The translations under genes were made by a program, and so were the position numbers. A stretch of DNA of 64,000 nucleotides from the NCBI RefSeq assembly GCF_001648895.1, contig NZ_LXUF01000016.1, positions 124,001 to 188,000 of the forward strand. Direction: 5' to 3'. The notes below the pieces were generated by a model. The model saw nothing but the letters and a program-made list of their open reading frames with translations, was not told the DNA's origin and made no database searches. This document shows positions 10,590 through 56,440 of this stretch, piece after piece; position 1 is the first letter of the stretch; every line of letters begins with the position of its first letter. The stretch comes from Methylovorus sp. MM2. Its GTDB lineage: Bacteria > Pseudomonadota > Gammaproteobacteria > Burkholderiales > Methylophilaceae.

Positions 10590-11330
10590 TTAACGCAAGT
10601 AACCCTGCAACCGCTCTTCGACGATTCTGGGGTGATCGCCGTTCAAGATCGAGACCCAGGCATTTAGCAACATTTCACGCCGGACGCCTTCCAGTTGGAT
10701 GATGGCTTTCAATTTGTTGCCAATGGGTAGAAAAACTAGATTAGCCAGGCCAACGCCGTAGATGGTTGCCACGAATGCTACAGCGATACCGCTACCTAGC
10801 TTGGTTGGGTCAGATAAGTTTTCCATCACGTGAATCAGCCCCAGTACCGCACCCAAAATACCGATAGTAGGCGCATAACCGCCAGCGGCATCCCATATCT
10901 TTGCGGCATTACGTCTTTGGGTTTCGTGAAAATACATATCAATACTGCATATCTCACGTACTTTTTCCGGTGCGATACCATCGATCATGAGGCGCAACCC
11001 TTTTTTTACGAAAGGGTCTTTTTCTGCATTGAGGTTAGCTTCCAGCTTGAAGATGCCGTCTTTTCTCGCGACATTGCTCCATATCATGATACGTTTGGCG
11101 AGCGCTTTTCTGTCATCGGCAGGCGGAGAAAAGACAAGGCCAAGCATCTTGACTCCCATGACAAAGCTCGATGGTGGCGTTTGAAGCAGCACTGCACCAA
11201 AAGTGCCCAATATGACGATGATAAAAGCGGCTGGTTGGACCAGCGAACTAATATGACCACCTTCTAATGCCTGCCCGCCTAAAATCCCTACAATGGCAAT
11301 GATAATGCCGGTTAAGCTGCCCCAGTCCAT
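10590..11330 (-). CDS. motC: Flagellar stator protein MotC (MotA-type)
   Basis: A proton-channel stator subunit of 246 residues with four predicted membrane helices. The ARKDGIFKLE segment corresponds to the charged cytoplasmic loop that contacts FliG. The helices AGGYAPTIGILGAVLGLIH and FVATIYGVGLANLVFLPIG carry the conserved prolines. Its start overlaps the end of fliA by 19 bases. With motD it makes the second stator set of this genome. Confidence 0.91.
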   Translation of the reverse strand: MDWGSLTGIIIAIVGILGGQALEGGHISSLVQPAAFIIVILGTFGAVLLQTPPSSFVMGVKMLGLVFSPPADDRKALAKRIMIWSNVARKDGIFKLEANLNAEKDPFVKKGLRLMIDGIAPEKVREICSIDMYFHETQRRNAAKIWDAAGGYAPTIGILGAVLGLIHVMENLSDPTKLGSGIAVAFVATIYGVGLANLVFLPIGNKLKAIIQLEGVRREMLLNAWVSILNGDHPRIVEERLQGYLR

Positions 11331-12049
11331 GATTGCTCTTTCATATTAGCGCGTAGTCTTGCGATTGCTTGGCTGTGTAACTGGCATACGCGCGACTCTG
11401 AAACATTCATCACGGCACCAATCTCTTTTAAGTTTAATTCTTGTTCGTAGTACAAGCCCATTAAAATCTTCTCGCGCTCTGGCAGGTCATCGATCGCTTC
11501 TATCAGTGCATCTTTGAATGCTGCTGAAAGCATTCCCTGCATGGGATCACCCTTGGCATCTTGCAAGAATCGATCCAGGAAATGATCGCCATTTTCTGAT
11601 GAATCGCTAAAGTCTTCATAATGCAGTAGCTGGTGACCACTACAGTCACCTAGCATGTCGTAATATTCATCTAGTGGGAGATTGAGTTGTTTGGCGACTT
11701 CGCCTTCAGTAGGTGGCCGACCTAAAGATTGTTCAAGCTGGTTGATGGCAGTCTCAACGTCACGCATATTCTTGCGCACACTACGTGGCAGCCAATCCGC
11801 ACTACGCAGCTCATCTATCATCGCACCACGAATTCTTTGTGCTGCATAAGTCTCGAACTGCGCACCATGGCTGTCTTCATACCGATTCACGGCATCCAGC
11901 AGTCCCATCATGCCGGCCTGAATGAGGTCATCGATCTCCACGCTGGGTGGTAGTTTAGCTTTAAGCTGATATGCCAGTTTTTTGACGAGTTGCGCGTGTT
12001 GCGTGAGCAACTCATCTTTCTGGTCGGATTTTCCACTTGCCGTGTACAT
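11312..12049 (-). CDS. fliA: RNA polymerase sigma factor FliA (sigma28)
   Basis: Directs transcription of late flagellar and chemotaxis genes. The 245-residue protein has region 2 (DLIQAGMMGLLDAV, GAQFETYAAQRIRGAMIDEL, then DWLPRSVR), region 3 (LGRPPTEGEVAKQLN) and a region 4 helix-turn-helix (LNLKEIGAVMNVSESRVCQ). All are typical of FliA. Promoters that fit it exactly occur in this window (5583, 18003, 18180, 18347, 20449, 33947). It lies between flhG and motC in the operon. Confidence 0.97.
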   Translation of the reverse strand: MYTASGKSDQKDELLTQHAQLVKKLAYQLKAKLPPSVEIDDLIQAGMMGLLDAVNRYEDSHGAQFETYAAQRIRGAMIDELRSADWLPRSVRKNMRDVETAINQLEQSLGRPPTEGEVAKQLNLPLDEYYDMLGDCSGHQLLHYEDFSDSSENGDHFLDRFLQDAKGDPMQGMLSAAFKDALIEAIDDLPEREKILMGLYYEQELNLKEIGAVMNVSESRVCQLHSQAIARLRANMKEQSWTGAA

Positions 12050-14458: not shown

Positions 14459-16536
14459 GCTTGACCTCCAATAAGGCTAGTAACGCGGATAGTTTTTGAA
14501 TCAGGGAGTTCTTCATGCGAAAGCACACGAAGATGTGGGATTGCACGACGTAAAAACTTGGAAAGGGCTGCTCGTAATTGGGCTGGTACCAGTAACACTG
14601 GGGTCATGCCCATTTGCTCTTGTTTTCTTGATGCTACCTCTGTCTGCCTGGCTAATGTCTCAGCCAAGCCGGGTTCGATAGCAGCGCCAGTTGCATTATT
14701 GCTTTGCATCGCTTGTAGCAATAAGCGTTCAAGGTTGTTATCCAATGCCATGACTGAAAGCTCGTTACTCATCGGGAACAGCTGCTGCACAATGGCACGG
14801 CCTAACTGAACCCGCACTAAAGCAGTAAGATCATTGGCGTCTTGCGTGTGAGAGGCATGCTCAGCCAGTGTTTCGACAATAGTGCGCATGTCACGGATAT
14901 GTACACCTTCCATCAGCAGGTTCTGTAATACTTTCTGGATGGTGGAGAGTGACAACATCTTGGGCACTAGATCTTCGATCAGTTTTGGTGATTCTTTGCC
15001 CACATGATCCAGCAACTGTTGCACTTCTTGACGGCCTAATAGCTCAGCAGCATTGGTCGTGATGATATGGTTAAGATGCGTGGCGATGACTGTACCTGCA
15101 TCGACCACGGTATAACCCATACCCTGCGCTTGGTCACGAAGGCCAGAATCCACCCAGATGGCAGGTAATCCAAAAGCAGGATCTGTAGTAGCTGCACCTG
15201 GTAATGTGCCGCTCACCATGCCAGGGTTGATCGCAAGAAATTGGCCTTGATGAGACTCACCGCTAGCGATCTCTACCCCTTTAAGGGTGATGCGATAAGC
15301 AGATGGTTTGAGTTCCAAGTTGTCACGGATATGTACGGTAGGGGATAAAAAGCCAACCTCTTGTGCAAATTTCTTGCGCAGGCCCTTGATGCGTTTTAAA
15401 AGCTCGCCACCCTGTGCCTTATCCACTAGGGGAATCAAGCGATAGCCAACTTCAAGGCCAATCACATCCACTGGCACGACATCGTTCCAGCTTGCCTCTT
15501 CAGGCTCAGCAACGATTTCGGTTTGTTCAGGCGCTTCTGGTGTTTCAGCCGCTTTTTTCTGTGCTGCAATAAAATACCCAAGACCGATCATTAGTATGGA
15601 GAGCAGCAGGAATGCAAAGTGAGGCATGCCGGGGATCAAGCCCATGCCGCCAATGATCGCACCAGTGACGAAAATGGCTTTTGGATTAGAGAACAACTGA
15701 GTCACTAACTGTGTACCGATATCTTGGTCATTGGCTACGCGTGATACCACTACACCAGCAGCGACAGAGATGATGAGGGATGGTATCTGTGCGACCAAGC
15801 CATCGCCAATCGCTAATAAGGTGTAGTTCTTCACTGCATCTGCAAATGCCATGTCATGTTGAAGCACGCCAACGATCAAGCCGCCAATCACGTTGATGAT
15901 TGTGACCAGAATGCCAGCGACTGCATCACCGCGTACATATTTACTGGCACCATCCATTGCCCCATAAAACTCTGCTTCCTGACCGATCTCGCTACGGCGT
16001 TTGCGCGCGTCCTCTTCACCGATCAAACCTGCATTCAGGTCAGCATCGATTGCCATTTGCTTGCCTGGCATCGCATCCAAGGTAAAGCGCGCGCCCACTT
16101 CAGCGATACGACCTGCACCTTTGGTCACCACAATAAAATTGATGATCGTCAATATAATGAATACCACGATACCAACCGCGTAGTTCCCTCCAATCAGAAA
16201 GTGGCCAAATGCCTCGATCACCTTGCCTGCGGAATCTGGGCCTGAGTGACCTTCCGTCAACACCACACGTGTAGATGCCACGTTGAGGGATAGACGCAAC
16301 ATTGTCGTCACAAGAAGAATCGTCGGAAATGCTAGGAAGTCCAGCGGTTTGGAAGTATTAAGACCAATCAGCAACACTAATATAGAGAGTGCGATATTAA
16401 AACTGAACAGTGCATCCAGCATGATCGCCGGTAATGGCAAGATGATCATCGCCAGTAAGAGAACGATGATCAGCGGCGCCGCAATAGCGCGCCCGTTAGC
16501 AGTGTTGGCCCAGTTAGAAAAACTCAGTGCGTTCAT
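14455..16536 (-). CDS. flhA: Flagellar type III export gate protein FlhA
   Basis: The export gate component that energises flagellar protein secretion. The 693-residue length is normal. The N-terminal half has about eight membrane helices and the FHIPEP-type loop with the segment GARFTLDAMPGKQMAIDADL. The C-terminal half is the cytosolic ring that docks chaperone-substrate complexes. It overlaps flhB and flhF by four bases each (ATGA), so translation is probably coupled. Confidence 0.97.
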   Translation of the reverse strand: MNALSFSNWANTANGRAIAAPLIIVLLLAMIILPLPAIMLDALFSFNIALSILVLLIGLNTSKPLDFLAFPTILLVTTMLRLSLNVASTRVVLTEGHSGPDSAGKVIEAFGHFLIGGNYAVGIVVFIILTIINFIVVTKGAGRIAEVGARFTLDAMPGKQMAIDADLNAGLIGEEDARKRRSEIGQEAEFYGAMDGASKYVRGDAVAGILVTIINVIGGLIVGVLQHDMAFADAVKNYTLLAIGDGLVAQIPSLIISVAAGVVVSRVANDQDIGTQLVTQLFSNPKAIFVTGAIIGGMGLIPGMPHFAFLLLSILMIGLGYFIAAQKKAAETPEAPEQTEIVAEPEEASWNDVVPVDVIGLEVGYRLIPLVDKAQGGELLKRIKGLRKKFAQEVGFLSPTVHIRDNLELKPSAYRITLKGVEIASGESHQGQFLAINPGMVSGTLPGAATTDPAFGLPAIWVDSGLRDQAQGMGYTVVDAGTVIATHLNHIITTNAAELLGRQEVQQLLDHVGKESPKLIEDLVPKMLSLSTIQKVLQNLLMEGVHIRDMRTIVETLAEHASHTQDANDLTALVRVQLGRAIVQQLFPMSNELSVMALDNNLERLLLQAMQSNNATGAAIEPGLAETLARQTEVASRKQEQMGMTPVLLVPAQLRAALSKFLRRAIPHLRVLSHEELPDSKTIRVTSLIGGQA

Positions 16537-17702
16537 GGTGTGATCGCCTTAGGTAATTGATTAGCCTCAACGATATGAGGATCTAATTCATCAGGGACTG
16601 GTACGGTCTCTGGCACAACAGGGCGGAAGCCGCCTTGTTTCTTGAAGATACGCATCTGGAATACATAAGCCAGAACCTCAGCGACTGCGGAGTAAAGTGC
16701 TTGAGGAATCTCATCTCCCAATTCGGTATGTGCAAATAAAGCGCGTGCCAGTTTTGGAATCTCAAGTGTCGGGATATTGTGTTCGCCTGCGATCTCACGA
16801 ATCTTCAGCGCCATGACATCAGCACCCTTGGCAACTACTCTTGGCGCTCCAAAGCCATCTTCTTTATATTTAATGGCGACTGCATAGTGGGTAGGGTTGG
16901 TGATTACGACATCAGCTTTAGGTATCTCGGACATCATGCGGCGTCTTGCAATTTCACGTTGCTGTTGACGGATACGCGCCTTGATCTGTGGATTGCCTTC
17001 GCTTTCCTTGGATTCCTGCTTGATTTCCTCTTTCGTCATCTTCAACTTGTCAGCGTAGTGTTTGAGTTGGTAAGGCACATCAATCGCGGCGATGATGACC
17101 AGCGCGCCGACGATAAAAAGGAAACCTTTAAGCATCAAGTCATTGACTTGTGAGATGCCGGTATGCAAAGGTTGAAGAGATAGTTGCAATATCGCACCGA
17201 TATCATTTGAAACCACGATGCAAGACACAACACCCACTAATAATGTTTTTGCAATCGCTTTCACCAGCTCGACTAAGGAGTTCTTGGAGAACATGTTGCT
17301 GATACCCTTGATCGGATTCATGCGGCCAAACTGAGGGATGAATGCTTTCTCGCTCACATTCCAACCGCCAATGAGTGCAGGGGCAGCAATAGCGACTACA
17401 AAGAGTAATAGTGCAAGTGGCGCGAAATCTATAAGTAGGGCATATATAGCATCTGATATCTTCATCAGTAGCAAGGTAGGGTCGAATGCGGCTGCACGTT
17501 CAAATTGCAGGCCAGAGATCAGGTTTTGTTTAAGTGCGCTGCTAAACGTACTGCCCATGGCTAGCAAGCCTAAACCAGCGGATAAAAGCATGACGCAAGT
17601 GATCAGCTCTCTAGAGCGCGGAACGTCACCTTCCTCACGCGCTTTCGAGATGCGCTTGGGCGTCGCCTGTTCCGTTTTTTCTAGATCGCTATCTTCAGCC
17701 AT
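16533..17702 (-). CDS. flhB: Flagellar export switch protein FlhB
   Basis: Controls the switch from hook to filament export. It has 389 residues: four membrane helices in the first 210, then a cytosolic domain with the self-cleaving NPTH motif (ITNPTHYAVAIKY). It is the first gene of the flhB-flhA-flhF-flhG-fliA-motC-motD operon. Its promoter must lie in the AT-rich region above 17702; no sigma28 match faces it. Confidence 0.96.
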   Translation of the reverse strand: MAEDSDLEKTEQATPKRISKAREEGDVPRSRELITCVMLLSAGLGLLAMGSTFSSALKQNLISGLQFERAAAFDPTLLLMKISDAIYALLIDFAPLALLLFVVAIAAPALIGGWNVSEKAFIPQFGRMNPIKGISNMFSKNSLVELVKAIAKTLLVGVVSCIVVSNDIGAILQLSLQPLHTGISQVNDLMLKGFLFIVGALVIIAAIDVPYQLKHYADKLKMTKEEIKQESKESEGNPQIKARIRQQQREIARRRMMSEIPKADVVITNPTHYAVAIKYKEDGFGAPRVVAKGADVMALKIREIAGEHNIPTLEIPKLARALFAHTELGDEIPQALYSAVAEVLAYVFQMRIFKKQGGFRPVVPETVPVPDELDPHIVEANQLPKAITP

Positions 17703-18002
17703 GATTCTTCCAGATCGAGTCCACTATATTTAATCCACTGAGTATTTAATTCACTACAGTTTTATAAATTCATACCGTTATTGGATGTGGCAATTATTCA
17801 GCGATTTGGGGAGGTTGAATCTGGGGAATAAAAGGGTGAAAGCCATCCTTTCTTTTTCCGTAAGCTTAACGAAACTAGATTTTTTGATTAAAAATTAAGC
17901 AATTTAGTGTATTTTTGAAAATAGTTTATAAATTTATTGGTATATAAAACAATTGCTTATTAAATATATGCAAATATTTTCAATTTATTTTAAAAATATC
18001 CC

Positions 18003-18029
18003 TAAAGTTTTCTAAATCGTGACCGATAA
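18003..18029 (+). promoter_or_regulatory. FliA promoter 1 of the flhDC leader
   Basis: TAAAGTTT (18003-18010), eleven bases, ACCGATAA (18022-18029). Fifteen of sixteen box positions fit the sigma28 consensus. An A/T-rich stretch precedes it, as with the other two. Confidence 0.88.
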
Positions 18030-18179
18030 CTAATTTGAAGGTTGTAAATGTGCAGTGCGTGTATTTTTACGATCTTCAGTAAAGTTGTTAGCTTTAAAGT
18101 TTTCGCGTTAAATTTTGGGCAGTAAGTTAGGTCAAATTTAAGGGCAATAAATATTTTTTAAAATATTTAAGAAAAACCC

Positions 18180-18206
18180 TCAAGTTTCCCCAAAGTCGGC
18201 CGATAA
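18180..18206 (+). promoter_or_regulatory. FliA promoter 2 of the flhDC leader
   Basis: TCAAGTTT (18180-18187), eleven bases, GCCGATAA (18199-18206). It lies within the second copy of a duplicated segment. The first 35 or so bases of its transcript would match those of promoter 1, including an identical GATGTGCAGTGCGTGTA-like run. Confidence 0.87.
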
Positions 18207-18346
18207 CTAGTTTGAAGGTTATGGATGTGCAGTGCGTGTACTTTTGTAACTAGAATAATTAGTGTTGTTTAAAGCGGTAATAACAAACGATCGCAAAGGA
18301 CTTTTTAAAAAGATTTAATTTTTTTAAAAAAATGTTAAAACAAGCC

Positions 18347-18373
18347 TAAAGTTTTTTGTTTTTCATCCGATAA
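18347..18373 (+). promoter_or_regulatory. FliA promoter 3 of the flhDC leader
   Basis: TAAAGTTT (18347-18354), eleven bases, TCCGATAA (18366-18373). Fifteen of sixteen box positions match. The downstream sequence is not shared with promoters 1 and 2. A start near 18380 would lie only about 20 bases ahead of the hairpin at 18402. Confidence 0.87.
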
Positions 18374-18401
18374 CAAAAAATATTACGCTGTTTAGCAATT
18401 T

Positions 18402-18428
18402 AATAAACCAGCCTCTGGTTTATTTTCG
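18402..18428 (+). terminator. Terminator-like hairpin upstream of flhD
   Basis: AATAAACCAG, loop CCT, CTGGTTTATT, then TTCG. The ten-base-pair stem is perfect, but the T-run is short and partly inside the stem. It would end transcripts from the three FliA promoters before flhD, or act as an attenuator. Confidence 0.5.
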
Positions 18429-18456
18429 CTCGTGTAAACCATATTCTAAGCCACTC

Positions 18457-18483
18457 TACAGTGTTTGTAAGACAAACACTGTA
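18457..18483 (+). promoter_or_regulatory. Perfect 12-bp hairpin in the flhD leader
   Basis: TACAGTGTTTGT, loop AAG, ACAAACACTGTA. There is no T-run after it, so it is more likely an RNA structure or a DNA operator than a terminator. It lies 125 bases ahead of the flhD start. Confidence 0.5.
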
Positions 18484-18607
18484 TTGCTATTTGCCTGCCC
18501 GTCTTACAAAAAATACAGACATCTCCCAGTATTTACTTTGTTTACAGAAGTTCAAAGTACGCCTCACGCGCTGCACATTTATAACGTTTCAAAGTGAGGT
18601 ACTCGAA

Positions 18608-18922
18608 ATGACTGAAAATGAAATCATGTCCGATATCAAGGATGCCAACCTGAGCTACTTGATGCTTGCTCAACAAATGATCCGTGCTGATAAAGCTTCA
18701 GCAATCTTCCGTTTAGGTCTCAGCAAAGATATTGCTGATCTACTAGAACACCTAAGCAATGCTCAACTTCTTAAATTAAGCAGCTCCAACATGATGCTTG
18801 CAAGATTCCGCTTTGAAGATAGCGCTATCTTGGGAATGTTGACTAGCTATACAAAAGAACGTTCTCTTGCAAATGCTCACGCCGCTATTTTGATGGCAGG
18901 GCAATCTGCAGCTGTTGCTTAA
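18608..18922 (+). CDS. flhD: Flagellar master regulator subunit FlhD
   Basis: FlhD and FlhC form the FlhD4C2 activator of class II flagellar promoters. The start at 18608 (MTENEIMSDIKDANLSYLML) gives 104 residues, close to the family norm, with GAGGT seven bases upstream. The same frame is open back to 18461 but without an initiation signal. The helical body contains AQQMIRADKASAIFRLGLS, a strongly conserved FlhD region. flhC follows after 39 bases. Confidence 0.94.
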   Translation: MTENEIMSDIKDANLSYLMLAQQMIRADKASAIFRLGLSKDIADLLEHLSNAQLLKLSSSNMMLARFRFEDSAILGMLTSYTKERSLANAHAAILMAGQSAAVA

Positions 18923-18961: not shown

Positions 18962-19519
18962 ATGGATAAAAAGAGTGTAGTAAACGAAGCCGAACAGATT
19001 CAATTGGCTATACAGTTGATCAACCTGGGTTCGCGACTGCAATTGCTGGAATCGCAAACTAATTTATCTCGTGAGCGTTTGATCAAACTTTACAAAGAGC
19101 TGAAAGGTGTTTCGCCACCAAAAGGTATGTTGCCATTCTCTACAGACTGGTTCTTGACTTGGCAACCTAATATCCATTCCTCGATCTTTCTTAATATCTA
19201 CAAGTTCCTGCTTGAAAATGCGGAAGTAAAAGGTATTGTGGCGATCATGAAAGCTTACAAGCTTTACCTGCAACAAGTTGAGGCAGAGCCTGAAGATGAA
19301 CATGTGTTGTCGCTGACACGCGCATGGACACTAGTCCGTTTTGTTGAAAGCAAAATGTTGAAAATGCATGCGTGTAAATGTTGCGGCGGTCAGTTCGTTG
19401 TGAATGCCTATGATCTGAACAGTGATTATTACTGCAACCTTTGCCATGTGCCTTCGCGTGCAGGTAAAACTAAAAAGGCAAAAGAGCTCTCTTATGTTGC
19501 GTTGGAAATGACGGCATAA
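18962..19519 (+). CDS. flhC: Flagellar master regulator subunit FlhC
   Basis: The DNA-binding partner of FlhD. It has 185 residues. The zinc site near the C-terminus is complete: CKCCGGQF plus YYCNLCHVPSR supply the cysteines. The N-terminal helices include NLGSRLQLLESQTNLSRERL, typical of FlhC. It is cotranscribed with flhD and closed by an intrinsic terminator. Confidence 0.95.
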   Translation: MDKKSVVNEAEQIQLAIQLINLGSRLQLLESQTNLSRERLIKLYKELKGVSPPKGMLPFSTDWFLTWQPNIHSSIFLNIYKFLLENAEVKGIVAIMKAYKLYLQQVEAEPEDEHVLSLTRAWTLVRFVESKMLKMHACKCCGGQFVVNAYDLNSDYYCNLCHVPSRAGKTKKAKELSYVALEMTA

Positions 19520-56364: not shown

Positions 56365-56440
56365 TGGTGGGAGATCGGGGGGTCGAACCCCGGACAAACG
56401 GATTAAGAGTCCGCTGCTCTACCAACTGAGCTAATCTCCC
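56365..56440 (-). tRNA. tRNA-Lys (anticodon CTT)
   Basis: A 76-base cloverleaf: acceptor GGGAGAT/ATCTCCC, D-arm with AGTTGGTAGA, anticodon stem GCGGA/TCCGT around loop CTCTTAA (anticodon CTT, reads AAG), T-arm CGGGG-TTCGACC-CCCCG, discriminator A and encoded CCA. It is the target of the island on its 3' side. Confidence 0.96.

Follow-up and report, generated by a model that had tools for sequence, protein, structure and literature searches.

A row of FliA-type promoters ahead of flhDC in Methylovorus sp. MM2 and a duplicated hairpin complementary to the flhD leader

In the textbook flagellar cascade, FlhDC stands at the start and the sigma factor FliA (sigma-28) at the end. The stretch of DNA analyzed here, 64,000 nucleotides (nt) from Methylovorus sp. 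MM2 (family Methylophilaceae; NCBI RefSeq assembly GCF_001648895.1, contig NZ_LXUF01000016.1, positions 124,001 to 188,000 of the forward strand; hereafter the window), carries three tandem FliA-type promoters, P1 to P3, ahead of flhDC. P1 and P2 are each followed by a copy of a hairpin whose 5' arm and loop show complementarity to the leader of flhD, adjoining the Shine-Dalgarno (SD) sequence. Our tentative reading, to which we give somewhat less than an even chance, is that sigma-28 promoters and a layer of antisense RNA feed late flagellar assembly back onto flhDC and activate FlhD synthesis. A preliminary description of this DNA had offered two options, feedback onto flhDC or production of FliA-dependent RNAs. 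Both receive partial support, strengthened by the conservation of the promoters in two families and by the duplicated hairpin, and RNAs from P1 and P2 that are antisense to the flhD leader would join the two.

The FliA consensus consists of a -35 element TAAAGTTT, an 11-nt spacer and a -10 element GCCGATAA. P1 lies at 18003-18029 (TAAAGTTT-N11-ACCGATAA), P2 at 18180-18206 (TCAAGTTT-N11-GCCGATAA) and P3 at 18347-18373 (TAAAGTTT-N11-TCCGATAA); coordinates are those of the window, on the plus strand unless stated otherwise. Scored against TAAAGTTT-N11-GCCGATAA, each site matches 15 of 16 bases with a spacing of exactly N11, which bears out the initial claim of three tandem sites and slightly exceeds its 14-15 of 16. 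Transcription from them, with predicted starts near 18036, 18213 and 18380, would be FliA-dependent. At up to three mismatches the window holds eight FliA-type sites against 0.82 expected, a number reached by none of 100 shuffles. Across the whole genome (2.42 Mb), ten sites have at most two mismatches, compared with two for the pattern read backwards, and P1, P2 and P3 make up three of the five with at most one. At up to three mismatches the genome-wide count (39) equals that of the backwards control (38), so that weak sites mean little. The motif suits this host: other copies precede genes expected under FliA, with gene names read off the sequence, namely what we take to be flgM/flgN (5583), a methyl-accepting chemotaxis protein gene (33947), motA (20449, with three mismatches), flagellin (contig position 101105) and two genes of PAS/GGDEF type.

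The promoters are shared with relatives. A search of 187 family genomes found FlhC in 73, our own included, from which 74 loci were taken, 72 of them with a flhD match; the relatives include Methylotenera, Methylophilus, Methylobacillus and Methylovorus. L085, which represents a distant second flhD, was set aside together with L029, whose flhD had been mislocated to a contig end, and eight loci that were too short or masked. Of the 62 family loci that remained, 34, 53 and 59 have a forward FliA site 200-720 bases ahead of flhD at up to one, two and three mismatches, respectively. In an Oxalobacteraceae-type set of 34 loci (Massilia, Janthinobacterium, Duganella and others; the remaining five of L128-L166 were excluded) the corresponding numbers are 7, 18 and 31. 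Two or more forward sites are present in 10 of the 62 family loci and in 25 of the 34 Oxalobacteraceae-type loci, which makes tandem arrays the usual arrangement in the latter. At up to three mismatches the backwards pattern was found in none of 63 family loci (L029 included) and none of the 34, where shuffles expect 0.3 and 0.1 loci, and an order-wide sample showed a site in 10 of 55 usable loci. At P1, DNA similarity to relatives spans the promoter and ends near the -10 element or start site; the promoter is thereby common to relatives and the transcribed part is not. The promoter array ahead of flhDC is inherited and ancestral, and the antisense RNA, whose hairpin was recovered in this one of 187 family genomes, would be a local addition. 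As a separate observation, an opposite-strand FliA-like site (up to three mismatches) faces the forward one in 34 of the 62 family loci; in L059, L063, L036 and further loci it sits on the minus strand some 260-285 bases ahead of flhD. Such sites possibly serve the divergent flhB side; none was found upstream of flhD in the window or in the 34 Oxalobacteraceae-type loci.

In the present genome, the P1 and P2 regions are copies of one another at an offset of 177 bases, with 75% identity across 97 bases; the likeness covers promoter and early transcript and fades afterwards. Folding predicts a 5' hairpin of 19 pairs for the P1 RNA (18035-18079) and one of 14 pairs for the P2 RNA (18217-18251), the latter corresponding to the inner 14 pairs of the former at 18040-18074. 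Eight of these 14 common pairs are altered by nine substitutions, one of them on both sides, and none is broken. Pair conservation was judged by slid controls and by simulation, a shuffle control being uninformative with two sequences; when substitutions of any kind are placed at random, all 14 pairs survive with p ~0.0001. The folding z-score of the P1 hairpin (-6.28) is the lowest among 146 RNAs downstream of FliA sites, and that of P2 is -2.43. A 5' hairpin as a general feature after FliA sites is unsupported, the mean z of the 146 RNAs being -0.48 compared with -0.22 and -0.33 in two control stretches. A model search for the hairpin under strict filters recovered both of its copies here but no copy in the remaining 186 genomes of the family. 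Rfam gave no match above the gathering threshold at 17950-18700 (best score 21.9 against a threshold of 100), its sole match in the window being a tRNA at 56368-56440. The longest plus-strand small open reading frame starting between P1 and P3 encodes 25 amino acids (18048-18125).

The 5' arm and loop of each hairpin form an antisense segment, at 18038-18061 after P1 and at 18215-18238 after P2, whose target in the flhD leader lies at 18565-18594 (about -43 to -14). With leader positions 18565-18588, adjoining the SD sequence, 23 of 24 positions are pairable in the P1 copy and 23 of 24 in the P2 copy, and the three P1/P2 differences within the arm all preserve pairing with the leader. Ungapped antisense scores are 50 for P1 and 49 for P2; the maximum among 2000 shuffles of the upstream region was 38 (0 of 2000 as good), and the best score elsewhere in the window was 35 on the plus and 30 on the minus strand, as against 50. 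In a swap test of 75 family RNAs against 70 leaders, the own leader ranked first of 70 for both the P1 and the P2 RNA; the leaders included two false counterparts, those of L029 and L085. Genome-wide, a 14-mer core matched with at most one mismatch in four places: the two arms, the one leader target and one site elsewhere. P3 has no antisense segment after it; its RNA was not among the 14 best of the swap test, and its own antisense score is typical of shuffles.

Antisense pairing as a family-wide feature was considered and rejected: among the 75 RNAs, only those of P1 and P2 and six RNAs of L073, L074 and L077 fall below a z of -2.5. Among 65 RNAs of L128-L166 the best was that of L145 (z -2.5, rank 3 of 39), and in L021 and L033 none of 60 RNA shuffles was as good, yet both lie outside the 14 best of the swap test. 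The three Methylovorus-type loci L073, L074 and L077 present an observation of their own, in that their RNAs after FliA sites are rich in GT while the flhD leader of the same species is rich in CA. In an ungapped test with 500 RNA shuffles, their P3-position RNAs were matched by 17-29 shuffles and their P1-position RNAs by 24, 37 and 136, whereas the P2-position RNAs were ordinary (151, 273 and 413 of 500). This is maybe a second case of antisense pairing, mostly of low complexity, and as such it is a hint and no independent proof.

The target of P1 and P2 coincides with a leader structure that is predicted to sequester the SD sequence. Folding places GCCUCAC (18561-18567) opposite GUGAGGU (18594-18600) in a hairpin at 18561-18600, and in the leader alone the SD sequence has an unpaired probability of 0.12; the antisense target comprises the loop of this hairpin plus three stem bases. 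When the target is blocked, the predicted cost of opening 18595-18622 (from the SD sequence to codon 5) falls from 8.8-11.5 to 4.9-7.8 kcal/mol across five leader lengths. The predicted cost likewise depends on where the transcript starts, amounting to 10.4 kcal/mol for a start at 18445, 10.5 for P3, 6.6 for P1 and 4.0 for P2. In controls with shuffled arms (12 each), the mean was 7.6 (standard deviation 1.9) for P1 and 8.4 (minimum 5.1) for P2, and only the P2 read-through transcript, at 4.0, lies below all 12 of its own controls.

The available data are compatible with a model in which free FliA directs the synthesis of RNAs from P1 and P2 that carry the hairpin at their 5' end. The 5' arm and loop of this hairpin would then bind the leader hairpin that is predicted to hide the flhD SD sequence, engaging its loop and three bases of its stem, either in trans, as a short RNA, or in cis, within an mRNA running from P1 or P2 into flhDC. 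Pairing would open the hiding hairpin and yield more FlhD, a positive feedback. Read-through or processing, the pairing itself and the sign of regulation are steps that we infer. Activation, in cis or in trans, is favored because folding predicts that pairing frees the SD sequence and because the P2 read-through transcript falls below all of its controls. A more specific version holds that promoter choice sets translation: flhDC mRNAs from the FliA promoters would carry, at their 5' end, an antisense hairpin able to unlock the ribosome-binding site of the same mRNA, and mRNAs from an ordinary promoter would stay locked. This version we regard as unlikely.

Several results weigh against activation through pairing. 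The hairpins of the RNAs compete with pairing to the leader, and the net gain on cofolding is -12.4 for P1, where 21 of 100 shuffles are as good, and -17.5 for P2, where 4 of 100 are. The cost for the P1 read-through transcript (6.6) lies inside the range of its shuffled-arm controls, and the start codon becomes no freer, being unpaired with a probability of 0.40 in the leader alone, 0.20 in the P1 and 0.34 in the P2 read-through transcript. The SD-hiding hairpin is not a family-wide feature, with 330 of 5000 permutations as good. Furthermore, if only transitions are allowed in the simulation, survival of all 14 hairpin pairs has p ~0.04, and P2 fails to preserve four basal pairs out of the 19 in the P1 hairpin. 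Finally, the antisense hairpin occurs in one of 187 genomes, leaving the pairing without support beyond two paralogues.

The main and serious rival, rather unlikely in our estimate, is that the same FliA-dependent antisense RNAs repress flhDC: a long duplex at about -43 to -14 would block the 30S subunit or feed RNase III, giving negative feedback. It draws on the identical complementarity and duplication, on a duplex that ends adjoining the SD sequence and on a start codon that pairing does not free, and the regulators of E. coli flhDC listed in PMC10578931 count four small RNAs (sRNAs) and one antisense RNA as repressors compared with one activator. Pairing leaves the core of the SD sequence uncovered, however, and folding predicts that it is freed, which speaks for activation. 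An improbable alternative is that the FliA promoters merely add flhDC transcription, again a positive feedback, and that the complementarity is a functionless by-product of local duplication. Relatives without the antisense segment keep the promoters, such that the shared promoter function cannot need it, and the similarity of the DNA to that of relatives breaks off close to the start site. On the other hand, both copies retain arm and hairpin despite divergence of the DNA beyond them, and the complementarity is far above that of shuffles.

Very improbable, furthermore, is the proposal that P1 to P3 make short sRNAs ending at 18402-18428 that act on other mRNAs. The preliminary description had placed a terminator-like hairpin at 18402 and expected three RNAs of about 390, 210 and 45 bases to end there. 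The hairpin exists (18402-18424; stem 18402-18411 with 18415-18424, 10 bp, ~-10 kcal/mol), and sRNAs dependent on sigma-28 are known (PMC10578931). It is only terminator-like, however, being A/T-rich with a four-T tail (TTTTCGC), weak as a terminator and short of the intrinsic-terminator pattern of a G+C-rich stem followed by a T-run. It was absent from the output of a terminator scan over 17700-18700, which returned 18457-18483 and 17831-17851 instead; nothing was reported between 18029 and 18457, with no clear terminator after the P1 or P2 hairpin. The three predicted RNAs thus have weak support, and the genome search for the loop gave the flhD leader and one other place, no other target search having been made. 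That the three sites are chance matches is barely credible: the genome-wide count at up to three mismatches equals its backwards control, but the excess at up to two (10 against 2) and the conserved location upstream of flhD contradict it.

Elements of the proposed circuit have precedents. Autogenous control of flhD is reportedly the subject of a 1997 paper by Kutsukake, going by its title. The closest likeness is to McaS in E. coli, which pairs in the flhD 5' untranslated region (UTR); the SD sequence is predicted to be concealed there in a leader stem-loop that McaS seemingly opens (PMC3634460), and an opening by pairing is also predicted here. In contrast to McaS, the RNAs proposed here would arise in duplicate from FliA sites immediately ahead of flhD, and their pairing with the loop of a short hairpin around the SD sequence would extend over ~24-30 nt. 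The sRNAs listed for E. coli flhDC in passages of PMC10578931 are ArcZ, OmrA, OmrB, OxyS, AsflhD and McaS. All except McaS repress by base pairing with flhDC mRNA and are not described in those passages as sigma-28-dependent; AsflhD, moreover, is encoded antisense to flhD, whereas the RNAs here run in the flhD direction. The same passages describe MotR, FliX and UhpU as FliA-controlled small RNAs that feed back on the flagellar regulon, with lrhA, fliC and the S10 operon as targets and without pairing to flhDC (PMC10578931). Campylobacter CjNC1 and CjNC4 are, similarly, two paralogous sigma-28-dependent non-coding RNAs directed at 5' UTRs of flagellar genes, but their targets are sigma-54-dependent, do not include flhDC and do not lie downstream of the RNA genes (PMC4626219). 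Another FliA-dependent sRNA reduces motility (PMC11187230), and in Salmonella feedback on FlhDC runs via the proteins FliZ and FliT (PMC5809477). Among the titles returned by searches of open PubMed Central, none concerned either a sigma-28-dependent RNA that pairs with flhDC or, in these families, sigma-28 promoters upstream of flhDC, subscription papers lying mostly outside that scope.

The flhD leader contains a second structure. A 17-position hairpin around TTTGTAAGACAAA (18452-18488, with the palindrome 18457-18483 as its core) covaries strongly among relatives: in 36 sequences picked for diversity from 71 distinct ones (33 family loci and 3 Oxalobacteraceae-type), 94.6% of cells pair and ten pairs change on both sides. 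Its covariation score was reached by none of 500 shuffles, and the fraction of paired cells in slid versions is 33-50%. The TTTGTAAGACAAA core is nearly invariant even inside the stem, and the own copy is unpaired at some outer positions. Of 71 family loci, 22 lack the exact core TTTGT-N-AGACAA (some being masked or truncated at a contig end), as do 8 of the 39 loci L128-L166; 30 sequences from this second group retain the inner stem but not the middle. The hairpin occurs once in this genome, and a model search under strict filters in a 321-genome sample of the class, most of it without the family, found it in no other genome. Without an Rfam match, it is a candidate for a new cis-regulatory RNA of flhDC in the Methylophilaceae. 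Additionally, its apical GTAAGAC (18467-18473) is complementary to a downstream GTCTTAC (18501-18507) that is common in relatives, and this alternative pairing could conceivably act as a switch or pseudoknot.

Among the surrounding genes, flhD (18608-18922), flhC (18962-19519), flhB (16533-17702, minus strand, divergent from flhDC) and fliA (11312-12049, minus strand) each pass the NCBIfam cut-off, and the genome encodes Hfq. A GAATAAAAGGGTGAAA-like motif at 17826-17841 recurs upstream of flhB in L010, L073 and L081, across several genera, and may serve the flhB operon as an activator site. FliA-like sites at L002:1501-1527 (one mismatch) and L007:1501-1527 (two mismatches) precede what are presumably PAS/GGDEF-type genes, hinting at cyclic di-GMP genes in the FliA regulon.

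Taken together, a row of FliA promoters upstream of flhDC, conserved across two families, would close the flagellar loop at the level of the DNA, and in this genome the loop would itself make an RNA complementary to the leader of the master regulator. Should promoter choice indeed set translation, the cell would commit to more flagella only after finishing a first, and a duplicated, self-activating riboregulator would have evolved atop an old sigma-28 promoter array.
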